Shown: positions 33,303 to 53,093 of the stretch, in pieces
Layout: each line of letters opens with the position of its first letter
Position numbering within the stretch: the stretch's first letter is position 1
Source: Emticicia sp. 21SJ11W-3
GTDB lineage: Bacteria > Bacteroidota > Bacteroidia > Cytophagales > Spirosomataceae
Reading direction: 5' to 3'
DNA length: 64,000 nt
Assembly (NCBI RefSeq): GCF_024138715.1
Contig: NZ_CP092074.1
Span: 186,001 to 250,000 of the forward strand
The notes under the pieces: model-generated
What the model saw: the letters and a program-made list of their open reading frames with translations, nothing else
Database searches by the model: none
What the model was told of the DNA's origin: nothing
Program-made: the position numbers and the translations under genes

Positions 33303-33445
33303 ATTGGTGGTTGTTTTAGAAAAGAAACATTGTGTATTGTGGGTATAGACGAACAAAAACTGAAAAGAGTGGTATAGGAAAGACAAACTTTATGGGCATA
33401 CCAGAAAATTGAAGTGCGCCCAAATTGGATTGTAAAAACAAACAA

Positions 33446-33478
33446 TAAAAAAAGAGACCGCCGGTTTATGGCAGTCTC
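33446..33478 (-). terminator. Duplicated copy of the oxidoreductase operon terminator
   Basis: Stem GAGACTGCC / GGCGGTCTC (minus-strand sense, one mismatch) followed by seven T. The functional copy is at 35223-35255. Confidence 0.8.
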
Positions 33479-33506
33479 CTGAATACTTATCTTATTTGTC
33501 TAATTC

Positions 33507-33608
33507 TTAAAAACCTATCTGGCCTGAAAGAGACGCTCCGTAAGGTACAAAATCGGCATTTATGCCCATTACTTTACAGGCTTCGGCCGCAACTCTGATA
33601 GAGTTGTT
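33507..33608 (-). pseudogene. Orphan 3' fragment of the FAD oxidoreductase gene
   Basis: The last 34 codons of the gene at 35284-36609, including its stop, copied by the target duplication of IS element 1. No start and no function expected. Confidence 0.9.
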
Positions 33609-33675
33609 AGTCCCGACTTGTCCACCTCTTAAATTTAAAATCATAAGTTGCTGAAATAGAGTATATTAACTCTAT

Positions 33676-33683
33676 TAATTTTG
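33676..33683 (+). promoter_or_regulatory. Putative -7 element of the element 1 transposase
   Basis: TAATTTTG, 25 bases before the ATG; a TTG at 33648-33650 gives a long 25-base spacer. Overlaps the right arm of the small hairpin. Confidence 0.4.
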
Positions 33684-33708
33684 TAATTTGCTGACCTAAT
33701 GGGTCAAA

Positions 33709-35199
33709 ATGTATAAAATCAGGCAAATAAAATATTCAGAAAGTTCGGTTTCTATCCAGGTTTATAAGATTGAAAACAGGAAGCGAGTCATTGTTCGCCA
33801 CATCGGCACTGCTCGTAACGAGCAGGAGAAATCTGACCTACTTGTTCTTGCTAATGATTTTATTGAAAAAATCTCTAAACAACTTTTTCTCTTTGAAGAC
33901 CAGCAAGCAGGCAATGTATTTTATATCAGACAAACCGAATTTATCGGGGTTCATTATACTTTTCTTTATGATGTACTATCCAAAATTATCCTTGCCATCG
34001 GTTTTGACAAGCTAAACAATACTCTGCTTCTGGATTTGGTCATTATGCGGATAATGGAACCGGCCTCTAAACTTCGTTCTATTGCGCTTCTGGAGGAATA
34101 TTTTGGTATCAAACATCGCAGACAAAATTATTATAAGACTGCTCCTGAGTGGCTTAAACTAAAGTCGAAAGCCGAGGGCATTGCTCTCGCATTTGCCAGG
34201 AAGCATTATGCCTTTAATTATGACTTATTGTTTTATGATGTCACTACCTTGTACTTTGAGACTTTTGAAGAAGATGAATTGCGTAAGAATGGATTTTCTA
34301 AAGATAATAAATTCCAACAACCACAAATTTTAGTGGCACTAATGGTCAGTAAAGAGGGATTTCCGATAGCTTACGAAGTCTTTGCTGGCAATACTTTCGA
34401 GGGGCATACCATCATTCCCGTTGTAAAAAGTTTCATCCTTAAAAATAAGGTAAAAAACTTTACAGTAGTGGCTGATGCGGCAATGATTAGTACCGAAAAC
34501 ATTGAGGCGCTAAGAGAAAATGACATCAGCTACATTGTAGGAGCCAGATTAGGTAATCTTTCCCATGAGTTGATAGAGGCAATAGACAAAAGTATTTTGC
34601 GTGAAGATGGCAAAAGCATCCGCATCAAAACAGACAAAGGATATTTGGTTTGCAGCTACTCCACAGTCAGGTATCGTAAGGATAAGTATGAAATGGAAAA
34701 GCAAATAGAAAATGCTAAATACATCATCGAAAACCCCTCCAAAAACAAAAAGCTAAAGTTCACCACCACGAAAGAAGAAATTATAGCACTCAACCAGAAA
34801 CTAATTGATAAAACACAAAAGATTCTGGGAATCAAAGGCTATTATACCAATATAGAAGAAAGCCTTCTCAGCAATGATACCATCATAGAACGTTATCACG
34901 AATTGTTCAGAATAGAACAGGCTTTCCGAATAGCTAAAAGCGATTTACAGACAAGACCCATATTTCACTACAAAGAAGAACCTATCAAGCTACATCTGTT
35001 AATTTGCTTTACAGCACTGGTTATATCCAAGCACATAGAACTTCAAACAAACAAATCCATCCGCAAATGTATCCATGAATGTAAAAGGATAACAACGGCA
35101 AGGCTAAAAAACAAGATTACAGGAAAAGAAATAAAAATAAAGGCAAATCTAAACCCAGTAATCATGGAAATCCTAAGAAAAATCAACTTGCTGACCTAA
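33709..35199 (+). CDS. IS1634-family DDE transposase (element 1)
   Basis: 496 residues, intact. An N-terminal region with a short beta/helical DNA-binding part (YKIRQIKYSESSVSIQVY) precedes the RNase H-like catalytic core. Likely catalytic residues are Asp177 (LLFYDVTTLYFE), Asp256 (FTVVADAAMIS) and Glu403 in the RIEQAFRIAKSDLQTRPIFHY block, the Y-(2)-R-(3)-E-(6)-K-like signature of the IS4/IS1634 group. It cuts and joins the element ends. Length and motifs agree with the IS1634 subgroup, members of which are known for long target duplications. It is only distantly similar to the transposase of element 2. Confidence 0.93.
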   Translation: MYKIRQIKYSESSVSIQVYKIENRKRVIVRHIGTARNEQEKSDLLVLANDFIEKISKQLFLFEDQQAGNVFYIRQTEFIGVHYTFLYDVLSKIILAIGFDKLNNTLLLDLVIMRIMEPASKLRSIALLEEYFGIKHRRQNYYKTAPEWLKLKSKAEGIALAFARKHYAFNYDLLFYDVTTLYFETFEEDELRKNGFSKDNKFQQPQILVALMVSKEGFPIAYEVFAGNTFEGHTIIPVVKSFILKNKVKNFTVVADAAMISTENIEALRENDISYIVGARLGNLSHELIEAIDKSILREDGKSIRIKTDKGYLVCSYSTVRYRKDKYEMEKQIENAKYIIENPSKNKKLKFTTTKEEIIALNQKLIDKTQKILGIKGYYTNIEESLLSNDTIIERYHELFRIEQAFRIAKSDLQTRPIFHYKEEPIKLHLLICFTALVISKHIELQTNKSIRKCIHECKRITTARLKNKITGKEIKIKANLNPVIMEILRKINLLT

Positions 35200-35214
35200 T
35201 TTGAACAAGTCAGG

Positions 35215-35385
35215 ACAAACAATAAAAAAAGAGACCGCCGGTTTATGGCAGTCTCCTGAATACTTATCTTATTTGTCTAATTCTTAAAAACCTATCTGGC
35301 CTGAAAGAGACGCTCCGTAAGGTACAAAATCGGCATTTATGCCCATTACTTTACAGGCTTCGGCCGCAACTCTGATAGAGTTGTT
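35215..35385. repeat. Right copy of the ~170-bp direct repeat flanking IS element 1
   Basis: The copy that remains attached to the intact FAD oxidoreductase gene. Identical to 33438-33608. Confidence 0.95.
35223..35255 (-). terminator. Terminator of the rsmH-glycosyltransferase operon
   Basis: Stem GAGACTGCC / GGCGGTCTC with a 7-base loop and seven T on the minus strand, 28 bases after the oxidoreductase stop. Confidence 0.85.
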
Positions 35386-36609
35386 GGTACTTCTTTCGTC
35401 AGGGTAAATATGAGCCATATTGGCTATGTAAAGATTTTTGGTTGGGGTCTCGCAAGCCGGTACTTTTTCAGAGAAATTCAAATCGCATACAGTTGCAGCT
35501 GTATTGGTTTTGAAGATGTACACATTTTTTATCCAGTCTTCTGAGAACTCCGGATTAATGCGTTTCAAAGGCGGAATCATCAGGTCTTTGATTTCTTCAT
35601 TACTCATTTTCGCCAGGTCTTCACTCATGGCAAAGTAGCGGGATAAATACAGAATATGTGAGCCATTGTATTGCTCTTTCGGTATAAAATTGGTGTGCTC
35701 AATTACTCCACCAAACGGAAAACCCTGGTCGGCCACGTTCATCCAGTAAATATGGCTGAACGATTTTTTCATTTCCAGAATTGTACACACTGCACCGAAA
35801 TACTCAATGCCGTTGGCACCAAGCGGTGAGTTTTTAATTTTATCGAAATAAATAGAAGGTATAGTCAGCAGGAATTTATCTCCTTCAATGTTCAGATTTT
35901 TGGTTTTTATACTTTTTATTTCGTTATTTTCAATCTTAAATTCTTCAACGGGTTCATTTTTGATGAGTTCCACGCCCATTTCATCCAATCTTTTCAGAAG
36001 CGTTTCTATCAGGGTTTTCCAACTTCCCTGAATATAGCCCAGGCGCTCGTCTCCCGATTTCCTTGAACCCAGTCTTTGAGCCATCCGGCCAATCATCCAC
36101 GACAACGGTACCTGCCCTGCATAAGGCCCGAATTTGATATTGAGCATGGGTTTCCAGAGGGCATCTGTTATATCTCGCCCTGCCCATTTATAAAACCATT
36201 CCAGGGTAGGGGTGCCTTCATTCTCGCGCCACTTGGCCAGTTTACCCAAAAAAATACTGGTCAATCCAAAACGGATTTTGCCTAAAAAACCTACGGGCTT
36301 AAACTTCAGTAAATCAACTGGTGAATTAAAATCATATATTTTTCCATTTCTGAAAACCCCCATAGTGGTTTTTTTATAGAAGGCTTTATCAGCAATACCC
36401 AGATCTTGCAACAACCAGCGTAATTCGGCATCCTGCGTAAAGAAATGGTGGTAGTAATACTCCAATTGGTTGCCGCCAATCTCAAAAGTATTGAGTAGCC
36501 CGCCAAATTTATCGCTGCCTTCAATTACGGTTACCTTAATGCCCTGTTTGGCTGCAACGTATGCAGCCGCCAGACCGGTCATGCCACCACCTATGATGTT
36601 TAATTTCAT
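35284..36609 (-). CDS. FAD-dependent oxidoreductase (amine oxidase / protoporphyrinogen oxidase-like fold)
   Basis: 441 residues. The N-terminal dinucleotide-binding motif is IIGGGMTGLAAAYVAAKQGIKVTVIEGSDKFGG; the C-terminal NLYIANMAHIYPDERSTNNSIRVA closes the FAD site as in amine oxidase/UDP-galactopyranose-mutase relatives. Such enzymes are common in polysaccharide gene clusters of many phyla, but the reaction is unknown; it may modify a sugar or a polyprenyl-linked intermediate. It is the last gene of the minus-strand operon starting at rsmH, 22 bases after the membrane protein gene. IS element 1 inserted in its 3' end, yet the long target duplication left the gene full length. Confidence 0.85.
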   Translation of the reverse strand: MKLNIIGGGMTGLAAAYVAAKQGIKVTVIEGSDKFGGLLNTFEIGGNQLEYYYHHFFTQDAELRWLLQDLGIADKAFYKKTTMGVFRNGKIYDFNSPVDLLKFKPVGFLGKIRFGLTSIFLGKLAKWRENEGTPTLEWFYKWAGRDITDALWKPMLNIKFGPYAGQVPLSWMIGRMAQRLGSRKSGDERLGYIQGSWKTLIETLLKRLDEMGVELIKNEPVEEFKIENNEIKSIKTKNLNIEGDKFLLTIPSIYFDKIKNSPLGANGIEYFGAVCTILEMKKSFSHIYWMNVADQGFPFGGVIEHTNFIPKEQYNGSHILYLSRYFAMSEDLAKMSNEEIKDLMIPPLKRINPEFSEDWIKNVYIFKTNTAATVCDLNFSEKVPACETPTKNLYIANMAHIYPDERSTNNSIRVAAEACKVMGINADFVPYGASLSGQIGF

Positions 36610-49013: not shown

Positions 49014-50555
49014 ATGAACAACACATTAAAAACAATCGGTATTGCTATTGCAAGTAGTATCGTTACCATAGGTGGTTATCGTATGTTGGGTCTTGAAGGA
49101 AAAGATGTTATTTTTAATGAGTCATCTTCAACTCCTGCTATCAACAGACTAGCTAACTATTCAGGCGGAGCGGCCGTTCCCGGCGACTTTACCTATGCAG
49201 CAGAACTTTCAACGCCATCAGTAGTACACATTAAGGCCAAGTCGTCTCGTATGGTGCGTCAGCAACGCTCTATGTTTGATGATTTATTCGGCGATGATTC
49301 CCCATTCGGTTTCGGAGTCCCCCGGGGCGGAAGCCAGCAACAGGAATCTTCAGGTTCCGGAGTAATTATAGCGGCAGATGGCTACATTGCCACAAACAAC
49401 CACGTAGTAGAAGGAGCTGACGAGCTGGAGGTTATTACTTCAGACCACAAAACCTACAAAGCCAAAGTGCTGGGTACTGACCCTTCAACAGACATCGCTG
49501 TTATTAAAATAGATGGCAGTGGTTTTCCTGCCATGTCGTTTGCCAACTCAGATAACGTAAAAGTTGGCGAGTGGGTATTGGCCGTAGGTAACCCTTTCAA
49601 TCTCGAGTCAACAGTAACAGCAGGTATTGTAAGTGCCAAAGGCCGCAATATTGGTATTCTGGCGCAAAAACAACAAATGTTCAGACGTAACAGCGACGAC
49701 CGCCAGCAAAGAACATCAGACGCCATTGAATCATTTATTCAGACTGATGCCGCCGTGAATCCCGGCAACAGTGGTGGGGCTCTGGTGAACCTGAAAGGTG
49801 AGTTAATAGGTATTAATACTGCCATAGCCAGCCCTAACGGCGCTTATGCAGGTTATGCATTTGCGGTGCCTTCAAGCATTGTGAAAAAAGTAACTGCCGA
49901 CATCGTGAAATACGGTAATGTTCAACGCGGATACTTAGGCATTAACCTGTTGGAGCTTGACGGCAAAAGAGCTGAAGAAGTTGGTTCAAAAGAAACATCG
50001 GGTATCTATGTAGCTGACGTAATTGAAAACGGCGCTGCTAAAGCCGCAGGTATCAAAAAAGGTGACGTAATTGTGAAAGTTGATGGTGTTGAAACCAAAA
50101 GCGGCCCAAGATTACAGGAAATGATTGGTCGTAAACGTCCGGGTGAATCAGCAATGGTTACCGTAATACGCGACGGCAAACCAAAAGATTTTGATGTAGT
50201 GCTACGTAACAGAGACGGCGGACGCGACATTCTGAAAAAAGAAGCTGTTGAAGCCGACAGAGCTTTTGAAAAACTAGGGGTAGAGCTGTCTGACCTAACG
50301 CCGGCAGAAAAACAAAAACTGGGTGTTCAGGGCGGTGTAGTAGTAAAAAGAATTTATGATGGCGATATTGCCGATTATACCGAAATGCGTGAAGGATTTA
50401 TTGTTTTGAAAGTAGGTGAGCGCAAAATTAAATCGGTCAGTGAATTTAAAGAAGCCATCAAAAATGCAAAAGAAAATGGAGACGATGGCGTATTGATTTG
50501 CGGCACTTACCAAAGCATATCACGCACGGTTTGTTATGGCGTTTCTTTAGAATAG
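49014..50555 (+). CDS. HtrA/DegQ-family serine protease
   Basis: 513 residues. An N-terminal hydrophobic segment (about 5-22) anchors or exports it to the periplasm. The trypsin-like catalytic triad is complete: His130 in IATNNHVVEG, Asp160 in DIAVIK and Ser253 in VNPGNSGGALV. Two PDZ domains follow (about 305-395 and 415-505). It degrades or refolds damaged envelope proteins. The last 117 coding bases and 254 bases downstream are duplicated at 52656-53026 because IS element 2 inserted here; the gene itself remains full length, the stop being on the left copy. Confidence 0.95.
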   Translation: MNNTLKTIGIAIASSIVTIGGYRMLGLEGKDVIFNESSSTPAINRLANYSGGAAVPGDFTYAAELSTPSVVHIKAKSSRMVRQQRSMFDDLFGDDSPFGFGVPRGGSQQQESSGSGVIIAADGYIATNNHVVEGADELEVITSDHKTYKAKVLGTDPSTDIAVIKIDGSGFPAMSFANSDNVKVGEWVLAVGNPFNLESTVTAGIVSAKGRNIGILAQKQQMFRRNSDDRQQRTSDAIESFIQTDAAVNPGNSGGALVNLKGELIGINTAIASPNGAYAGYAFAVPSSIVKKVTADIVKYGNVQRGYLGINLLELDGKRAEEVGSKETSGIYVADVIENGAAKAAGIKKGDVIVKVDGVETKSGPRLQEMIGRKRPGESAMVTVIRDGKPKDFDVVLRNRDGGRDILKKEAVEADRAFEKLGVELSDLTPAEKQKLGVQGGVVVKRIYDGDIADYTEMREGFIVLKVGERKIKSVSEFKEAIKNAKENGDDGVLICGTYQSISRTVCYGVSLE

Positions 50556-50809
50556 TACCAGGGTGCCATCAGGTATTAATAATCAGGCCCTTACAATCAG
50601 ATATTGCTTTAAAAAGCAGTAGTAATTCAAAAATTGCTACTGCTTTTTGTTTATATCACACTGTAAAAGCCGTAATGGGTTTTCACAAAATGCCTTATAT
50701 GTTTTATGATGCCAGTTTCTGATTATTGAATCAAATCCTCTGCCAATACCGTGTATCAATAGAAGTAGTTGGCTGTTCTGTTCTTTTTTCGTTCAATCTT
50801 AACTAATTT
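50439..50809. repeat. Left copy of the 371-bp direct repeat flanking IS element 2
   Basis: Identical to 52656-53026 over 371 bases (offset 2217, no mismatch found by eye). It contains the 3' end of the HtrA-like gene, its terminator and 160 further bases. It stops exactly at the IS terminal inverted repeat. Confidence 0.96.
50611..50648 (+). terminator. Terminator of the HtrA-like gene
   Basis: Perfect 12-bp stem AAAAAGCAGTAG / CTACTGCTTTTT; it lies 56 bases after the stop. Confidence 0.85.
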
Positions 50810-50902
50810 CTTGAGTTTGACACGATTTTGGGATAAGTGGCTGATAATAAGGCACATGAATATCCAATCGGCTCTCTACAAACCGTTATTTGGAGTGCGA
50901 GT

Positions 50903-52513
50903 TCAGATTTTAAACTTTGCTTGCGTTTGTATGGGTAATATTGGTTTTAAGCCCAGTTTTTGGAGGATAGTTTTTTCGTTTTCTGTTGGCATAGACCTTA
51001 GATAAGATTTGGCTCCGTTATTTTCTATCAGGCTTACTTGCATTTTGTCAAGGGTATCCCTCAACCCTTTTTCAGTGATTACATTTTTATCGCGGTTAAT
51101 TTTTTGTAAGACAAAGTTTTGTATGGCGAAGGCTATGTAACACAGGCATATATGTCCTTCGATTCGCTGGTCTGTCCAGTGAAACATGGGCCTGGTTTCC
51201 AGATGGGATTTGAAGGTTCTGAAGCTATGTTCTATTTTGAATAGTTGTTTGTATTGGTCCAGAACTTCGGCTACCGGCATGCTTTGATTATTGGTGCTTA
51301 TAGCTAAAAACCCATCATACTTTTCGGAGACCTTTATTTTTTCTTCATTCAGGCTATATTTCTGGTTTTCATCTGATTTTAAGAAGAATCTGGTGGCTTT
51401 ATTGTTGATTTTCGAAGGGTTCTTCAAGAGGTGCTGTGCGTGCTGTAGTTTATCTTCCCGGTCTTGCTTGTCTTTGGCCGCTCTTTTTGCCGAGTAGGTA
51501 GTAATAAAGGTCTTGCCTTCCTGTTTTAATGTGGTGTAGCGAATCAAAACATCTTGTCCGGTAGCATCTTTGTATATCCACTGCTGATGGTAATTCTTTA
51601 AGTCGAGTAGGGTTTGCTGCGTTTTTTGGGGCAGGCTTTTCAAACGTTCTCCAATGATAAATTCGTAGCCTTTGCTATTTGTTATTTCCAGGTTTTTCTT
51701 TGAAAGCATCCCCCTATCGGCTACTACAATTACTTTGTCAATCTGGTATCGCTTTTTAAGGTCGCCCAGTGCTTCCCTAAAAGTATCCCCTTCATAGGTG
51801 TTGCCTTTGAAAACCCTATAACCGATAGGGTTTTTCAGGTGGTCTATGAGCATACAAAAAAGAACTTGTGTTTTACCTATTTTGCCATCCTTACCAAAAC
51901 CCATTTGTCTAAGTTGTCCTTCTTTCTCAACTTCGCTGGCAAAGTAGAAGGTCGTTACATCATAAAATACCACATCCAGGCTTTGATTGAAAAGATTCCG
52001 ACCCGTTTGAAAAATCTGCTGCTGGATTAACTCAGTATACTGAGCCAACTTATCCAGAGCCCGATACAAGTGCTGTAATGACAATTCGGGAAGGTTTATG
52101 TACTCATCACGATGCTGAAAGTTGCTGCGTTTGCTGCAAGGGCTTTGCAGTCGTTCCAAAAGCATCAGAAATACACTGTCAAAAAGACTGAACTGAAGCT
52201 TGCTCTTTTGCTGAAGACGATCCAAAAGAAGCCTTAACCCATACTGCTCCAGGGCATAACCAAATACTTTTTGATAACCATAATTGTATCGACCTAATTC
52301 GATTAGGTCCCCTTCCAAAATAGTCTTCAACTCTCCTCCACCTAATTCGTAAAATCTGATGCCAATGTTACGAAGTTCTTCAGGCTTATAATCTTCAACC
52401 TTACCAAGAGAATACAAAACCCTCGAACTAGGCTTCCCTGACCCATTTCGGAAACTCTCCAAAATGCGCAAATAAGTGCCTGATTGCTTTCTCTCTACTT
52501 TCAAATATGCCAT
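50903..52513 (-). CDS. IS1634-family DDE transposase (element 2)
   Basis: 536 residues, intact. Likely catalytic residues are Asp185 (VVFYDVTTFYFA), Asp266 (VIVVADRGMLSKKN) and Glu428 in FKIEHSFRTFKSHLETRPMFHW, the C-terminal signature of the IS4/IS1634 group. YSLGKVEDYKPEELRN near residue 34 is the N-terminal domain common in this family. A good promoter (TTG, 21 bases, TAATTTTG) ends only 5 bases before the ATG, so the message may be almost leaderless. It shares family and motif order with the element 1 transposase but little sequence. Confidence 0.94.
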   Translation of the reverse strand: MAYLKVERKQSGTYLRILESFRNGSGKPSSRVLYSLGKVEDYKPEELRNIGIRFYELGGGELKTILEGDLIELGRYNYGYQKVFGYALEQYGLRLLLDRLQQKSKLQFSLFDSVFLMLLERLQSPCSKRSNFQHRDEYINLPELSLQHLYRALDKLAQYTELIQQQIFQTGRNLFNQSLDVVFYDVTTFYFASEVEKEGQLRQMGFGKDGKIGKTQVLFCMLIDHLKNPIGYRVFKGNTYEGDTFREALGDLKKRYQIDKVIVVADRGMLSKKNLEITNSKGYEFIIGERLKSLPQKTQQTLLDLKNYHQQWIYKDATGQDVLIRYTTLKQEGKTFITTYSAKRAAKDKQDREDKLQHAQHLLKNPSKINNKATRFFLKSDENQKYSLNEEKIKVSEKYDGFLAISTNNQSMPVAEVLDQYKQLFKIEHSFRTFKSHLETRPMFHWTDQRIEGHICLCYIAFAIQNFVLQKINRDKNVITEKGLRDTLDKMQVSLIENNGAKSYLRSMPTENEKTILQKLGLKPILPIQTQAKFKI

Positions 52514-52517
52514 AATG

Positions 52518-52549
52518 CAAAATTACAACCATATAGCTTTGAATGTCAA
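52518..52549 (-). promoter_or_regulatory. Promoter of the element 2 transposase
   Basis: Minus strand: TTG at 52549-52547, 21-base spacer, TAATTTTG at 52525-52518; the start codon follows after 4 bases, so transcription should start at or very near the ATG. Confidence 0.55.
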
Positions 52550-52655
52550 TAGACAAAAACACAATCGGCTCTCTACACTTTTTCCGAAAAATAGCCAAAA
52601 TAGCCCCCAGTTAGCCATCCAAGAGCTTTTTCCAAAAACAACTGTCAAACTTAAG

Positions 52656-52772
52656 AGTGAATTTAAAGAAGCCATCAAAAATGCAAAAGAAAATGGAGAC
52701 GATGGCGTATTGATTTGCGGCACTTACCAAAGCATATCACGCACGGTTTGTTATGGCGTTTCTTTAGAATAG
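52656..52772 (+). pseudogene. Orphan 3' fragment of the HtrA-like gene
   Basis: The last 39 codons of the protease, including the stop, copied by the target duplication. It is in frame with an open frame from inside the IS (from about 52476), which is accidental. Confidence 0.9.
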
Positions 52773-52827
52773 TACCAGGGTGCCATCAGGTATTAATAAT
52801 CAGGCCCTTACAATCAGATATTGCTTT

Positions 52828-52865
52828 AAAAAGCAGTAGTAATTCAAAAATTGCTACTGCTTTTT
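52828..52865 (+). terminator. Duplicated copy of the HtrA-like terminator
   Basis: Same 12-bp stem as 50611-50648; it now shields the pse operon from transcripts leaving the IS right end. Confidence 0.8.
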
Positions 52866-53093
52866 GTTTATATCACACTGTAAAAGCCGTAATGGGTTTT
52901 CACAAAATGCCTTATATGTTTTATGATGCCAGTTTCTGATTATTGAATCAAATCCTCTGCCAATACCGTGTATCAATAGAAGTAGTTGGCTGTTCTGTTC
53001 TTTTTTCGTTCAATCTTAACTAATTTTGTGCCTTCATGCACTCATGGGTTAGTGAACTGTTAAAAAAATATCATCAGGGTTATATCATAAATT

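Follow-up and report, generated by a model that had tools for sequence, protein, structure and literature searches.

How does an insertion sequence (IS) come to lie between two identical 371-bp copies of host DNA, when most IS elements duplicate 2-14 bp of their target? The question is raised by a 64,000-nucleotide stretch of Emticicia sp. 21SJ11W-3 (contig NZ_CP092074.1, positions 186,001 to 250,000; the window), in which an 1846-bp element of the IS1634 family occupies positions 50810-52655. We found that the long duplication belongs to the insertion event, and that among relatives it tracks a clade of transposases and not the host. Direct alignment of 50439-50809 with 52656-53026 gave 371 matches in 371 bp, and the IS fills the interval between both repeats with no spare base at either side. 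This bears out a sequence-only reading of the locus, which had placed a complete element exactly between two copies. The bases just beyond the repeats differ at the outer sides (GGTC precedes the left copy, TGTG succeeds the right one) and at the inner sides, where the neighbours are the IS ends, so the borders of the repeat are exact. A match of this kind is not due to chance. A repeat scan of the whole window revealed just two families of direct repeats of at least 80 bp (the 371-bp pair and a 174-bp pair), each flanking an IS.

The repeat is host DNA, as had been claimed. The left copy (50439-50809) contains the final 117 nt of an htrA-type protease gene (open reading frame 49014-50555, plus strand), a terminator-like hairpin and a spacer. 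The htrA-type gene has remained intact, since its 3' end is included in the repeat, and the first 117 nt of the right copy (52656-53026) form an orphan copy of that end.

The element and its transposase

The borders of the IS, set by the direct repeats, were also given by its terminal inverted repeats, CTT[G/A]AGTTTGACA. These are CTTGAGTTTGACA at the left end (50810-50822, plus strand) and CTTAAGTTTGACA at the right, promoter-proximal end (52643-52655, minus strand). The 13-bp inverted repeats of the sequence-only reading were therefore present at both ends, but they agree at 12 of the 13 positions only. The DDE transposase (50903-52513, minus strand, 536 aa) matched the IS1634-family model NF033559 over residues 29-523 with 348 bits (cut-off 100), which upheld the family assignment. 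Pfam DDE_Tnp_1 also matched, and the NCBIfam IS4 models scored far below their cut-offs. Alignment of conserved columns placed the catalytic residues at D185, D266 and E428, all conserved; 161 residues separate D266 from E428, giving the long spacer before E that is a feature of the IS1634 family. Size and ends fit the family as described in PMC2266710 (1846 bp within 1500-2000 bp; ends CTT[G/A]AG, starting with C). The usual 5-6 bp direct repeats were not found, the five genomic copies having 44-482 bp instead. Such short repeats are not defining and membership stands, because the type elements IS1634 and IS1549 break the rule too. The IS4 family, from which the IS1634 family was split off, has related DDE transposases; it differs in its duplications of about 7-13 bp and its full YREK motif (PMC2266710). 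The 1846-bp element is a recently active IS1634-family element, and it has the traits of the long-duplication subfamily described below, namely long variable repeats at most copies and a position inside one transposase clade.

The duplication belongs to the insertion event

The sequence-only reading had proposed that the repeats arose on insertion. The part of the 371-bp repeat that belongs to the htrA end was present once in each of 10 congeners. The expected single copy was thus found for this part; a whole one-copy 371-bp empty site was not seen in the 10 congeners, in which the htrA coding part alone aligns and the non-coding spacer is not conserved. In two other insertions the IS was deleted in silico together with one repeat. 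At L145 this restored a single frame of 218 aa, and at L147 it gave a 202-aa frame with one continuous DUF3226 match across the repeat. A relative of the gene interrupted at L145, as proof of an empty site, was not found among 222 family genomes. The single htrA part in the congeners and the return of the frames together demonstrate that insertion makes the repeats.

The Emticicia genome is a single contig of 5.18 Mb and contains five full copies of the 1846-bp IS. The copies other than that at htrA were examined for short duplications, and they showed direct repeats of 482, 120, 44 and 127 bp instead. These four copies are identical to the first or differ by 1-5 substitutions. The copy with the 127-bp repeat looks older, because it has 4 mismatches between its repeats and 5 substitutions in the IS.

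A second, different IS1634-family element lies within the window (33612-35214, 1603 bp) and had been missed by the sequence-only reading. Its transposase (33709-35199, plus strand, 496 aa) matched NF033559 with 294 bits and belongs to the long-repeat clade. The left repeat (33438-33611) and the right repeat (35215-35388) are 174 bp long and differ by 1 mismatch. The right one holds the 3' end of a minus-strand gene (35284-36609), which is intact for that reason. Four of the five genomic copies of this element have repeats of 174, 112, 429 (2 mismatches) and 106 bp. The fifth (L207, at about 457 kb) lies inside sequence read as IS3-like, where a 218-bp near-repeat begins 396 bp off, on one side only. 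A third element (L204) is present in a single copy with a 133-bp repeat. All three transposases match NF033559, and 10 of the 11 IS1634-family copies of the genome carry repeats of 44-482 bp. The host control was an IS1182-family element with five copies in the same genome (L215-L219), at which no repeat of at least 4 bp was detected.

Long duplication follows a transposase clade, not the host

Long repeats were also found in relatives of the element. Lacihabitans sp. LS3-19, from the same family (Spirosomataceae; Cytophagales, Bacteroidota), harbours a relative with 79% identity. The Lacihabitans contigs break inside the IS, and the six contigs with a left end can each be matched to one of the six with a right end through shared repeats of 32, 441, 181, 236, 334 and 88 bp (0-2 mismatches). 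One Lacihabitans contig (C9, 1-511, L049) has two IS left ends in the same orientation, 42 bp apart at the contig end; a nested copy or an error of assembly may account for this. The complete, single-contig genome G632 has four copies, two with repeats of 325 and 131 bp and two (L141 and L142, at about 2.013 and 2.057 Mb) whose flanks pair crosswise only (281 and 156 bp). Since L141 and L142 are oppositely oriented, this pairing indicates that the segment of about 43 kb between them was inverted by recombination between the copies; their long repeats serve as tags of the original pairing of the flanks. Repeats of 43-400 bp, one pair crosswise, were found in a Mycoplasmopsis gallopavonis plasmid. 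Single elements in other Bacteroidota also have long repeats, as do those of an Aliarcobacter plasmid (680 bp), Rhodococcus plasmids (93 and 102 bp), a Persicobacter plasmid (33 bp) and a Streptococcus phage (47 bp). The repeat of a Carnobacterium plasmid element was read from two offset repeats as about 309-434 bp with an indel. Across these clade relatives, in at least five phyla, the range is 32-680 bp.

Other IS1634-family elements have short repeats. The element of a Mesorhizobium plasmid showed 5-6 bp at 8 of 8 copies, and those of Acidiphilium, Geobacillus, Alicyclobacillus, Sphingobium, Bradyrhizobium, Dietzia and Thiodictyon showed about 4-7 bp. Both types occur in genome G619, whose elements L066 and L119 have repeats of 45 and 7 bp. 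In a transposase tree of 54 rows, 23 long-repeat rows formed one clade (support 99/99) and the 4-7 bp elements fell on other branches. The long and short labels required 2 changes on this tree, compared to a mean of 12.7 after shuffling, and 0 of 500 shuffles were as low; in this count the 13-bp Ligilactobacillus element was placed in the long group. The result was the same after adding two further elements of the Emticicia genome, and without the Microbacterium plasmid element L191 one change suffices. Two residues, E241 and S341, mark the clade, and the short branches have D and N at these positions; they are markers and, as to cause, no more than candidates.

Two doubts concern the repeats themselves. 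The IS might have entered a tandem duplication that was already present or had formed beforehand, landing precisely at the junction, as with the IS481 insertion on record between two copies of a duplicated sequence (PMC11708052). We consider this very unlikely, its probability being close to negligible, because in 44 insertions of differing length, confined to one transposase clade, repeat and IS abut exactly, the htrA part is single-copy in the congeners and the IS1182 control shows no such repeats. Long repeats beside multicopy ISs are error-prone in short-read assemblies, which might point to an assembly artefact. The repeats, however, are present in two genomes that consist of one contig each (G000 and G632) and in finished plasmids from several phyla, always with exact borders. 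Other elements of these genomes, or of the plasmid collection, have either short repeats or no repeats at all, and an artefact is scarcely conceivable.

The kinship that the sequence-only reading had proposed with the long duplications of IS1634 and IS1549 was strengthened, as the trait goes with a single clade within the family. IS1634 of Mycoplasma mycoides shares the NF033559 family and long variable direct repeats with the Emticicia element; its host belongs to another phylum, and its presumed place in the clade rests on the Mycoplasmopsis relative. IS1549 of Mycobacterium smegmatis has reported long repeats (PMC2266710), and Rhodococcus members of the clade have the 93 and 102 bp given above. 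It differs in being actinobacterial and in the 13 bp of a fresh insertion (PMC10066036), and its place in the clade is likewise presumed from relatives. ISGka5, ISPfe2 and the element of Acidiphilium sp. PM are also DDE elements of the IS1634 family according to their authors, with 6-bp duplications in the first two (PMC8024623, PMC3281130) and 6-bp flanking sequences listed for the third (PMC4549789). The short-duplication elements differ from ours in the 4-7 bp of the relatives measured, in lying on other branches and in having D and N at the positions of E241 and S341. In 2008 the norm of the family was given as 5-6 bp and the duplications of IS1549 and IS1634 as 8-514 bp, with no mechanistic model proposed (PMC2266710). 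We found no earlier description of a clade-wide pattern, or of any case in Bacteroidota, in the open literature (subscription papers and ISfinder were outside the scope). The long repeats of IS1634 and IS1549 were already known; the clade-wide pattern and the junction rule described below appear to be new.

Junctions and a possible mechanism

Junctions were analysed in 44 insertions with repeats of 32-680 bp; the set was assembled from insertions classed as long and contains nothing below 32 bp. The mean repeat was 180 bp and the median 123 bp, 32 of the 44 repeats were identical, and mismatches amounted to 17 per 7898 bp. An ordinary short duplication might have grown afterwards through recombination or gene conversion between copies of the IS, which do recombine, as the crosswise pairing in G632 and Mycoplasmopsis illustrates. 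Such recombination, however, swaps flanks without duplicating unique flanking DNA, and the identical repeats, the near-identical IS copies and the lack of a short-to-long series with age make later lengthening highly improbable.

The first duplicated base of the joined strand (+1) was A in 36 of 44 and 34 of 44 insertions at the two ends, against an expected fraction of 0.32 (p = 2e-11 and 1e-9). This A is preceded by G or C and followed by purines, giving a half-site of about S|ARR. When the ends were re-sorted as promoter-proximal and distal, A at +1 was found in 35 of 44 at each. No coupling of the two ends within one insertion was seen in the 44 insertions (both A in 28 vs. 27.8 expected), and a difference between the ends at +2 was only suggestive (p = 0.07). 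Each junction follows its own local preference. The spacing of the repeats is not dictated by a shortage of suitable half-sites, which recur on each strand about once in 27 bases. The repeat lengths were also checked for a helical period of about 10.5 bp, an idea that was dropped because the signal was not significant (p about 0.09).

Taken together, these data are probably best explained by a subfamily of transposases that duplicates tens to hundreds of base pairs at each insertion, with the two IS ends transferred uncoupled. Each 3' end of the IS would choose a half-site for itself (about S|ARR), and the two sites would lie on opposite strands of one duplex. The 5' stagger would then be 32-680 bp, where the sister branches have a fixed one of 5-6 bp. 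Host synthesis, by strand displacement or replication, would copy the long paired segment between the nicks from either side, so that each side ends up with a full copy. The polymerase could come via the beta-clamp binding reported for the family (PMC4549789). The wider proposal has about an even chance of being correct: an ancient branch of the IS1634 family would have lost the fixed DDE stagger and would perform separate strand transfers on opposite strands, each at a half-site of its own choosing and the two as much as about 700 bp apart.

Opposite-strand attack at separately chosen half-sites would always yield a duplication. We paired all copies exhaustively in four replicons (the Emticicia genome, Lacihabitans, G632 and the Mycoplasmopsis plasmid); at least 28 pairs were duplications, about 3 could not be assigned and there was no demonstrable deletion. 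These counts bear on another explanation, in which the two ends insert at non-equivalent positions, one in each of the sister duplexes that trail a replication fork, and the joined daughter carries the intervening segment twice. Variable lengths and independently chosen junctions would fit it equally, and a transposase binding the beta-clamp, as reported in PMC4549789, would sit at forks. A directionless offset, however, predicts deletions as often as duplications, and the chance of observing duplications only, given no preferred direction, is about 2e-6. Selection against deletions could contribute to the excess, but we regard the sister-duplex route as unlikely.

Several observations weigh against long duplication by uncoupled transfer on a single duplex. 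Some copies of the long clade (L073, L076, L136, L154 and L207) have no clear repeat and were assigned to neither the long nor the short class. L191 lies inside the long-repeat clade with an apparent, uncertain repeat of 5 bp, either a return to the short stagger or a long repeat since lost, and the tree rows should not be counted as independent observations. The 13-bp repeat of the Ligilactobacillus element (L199) and the 13 bp of the new IS1549 insertion (PMC10066036) indicate that short staggers also happen. The QLxLF motif was described together with the beta-clamp binding of an IS1634-family transposase (PMC4549789); in the 536-aa transposase no convincing beta-clamp motif was seen, the C-terminus (...ILQKLGLKPILPI) having the Q but fitting QLxLF weakly. 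The predicted structure (pLDDT 45) was too poor for use. The +1 preference describes local junction choice and says nothing on the timing of the two transfers; we infer their uncoupling from sequence.

What had been an oddity of two elements is now a trait of one clade in at least five phyla. The question of mechanism has become testable, with 44 measured insertions, a junction rule, a sister group with short duplications (sometimes in the same genome) and E241 and S341 as candidate residues. Tools that expect 2-14 bp miss these long duplications, which also tag rearrangements such as the inversion in G632. If the proposed loss of the fixed stagger is true, every jump of these elements would duplicate a target long enough to spare or copy the ends of neighbouring genes.

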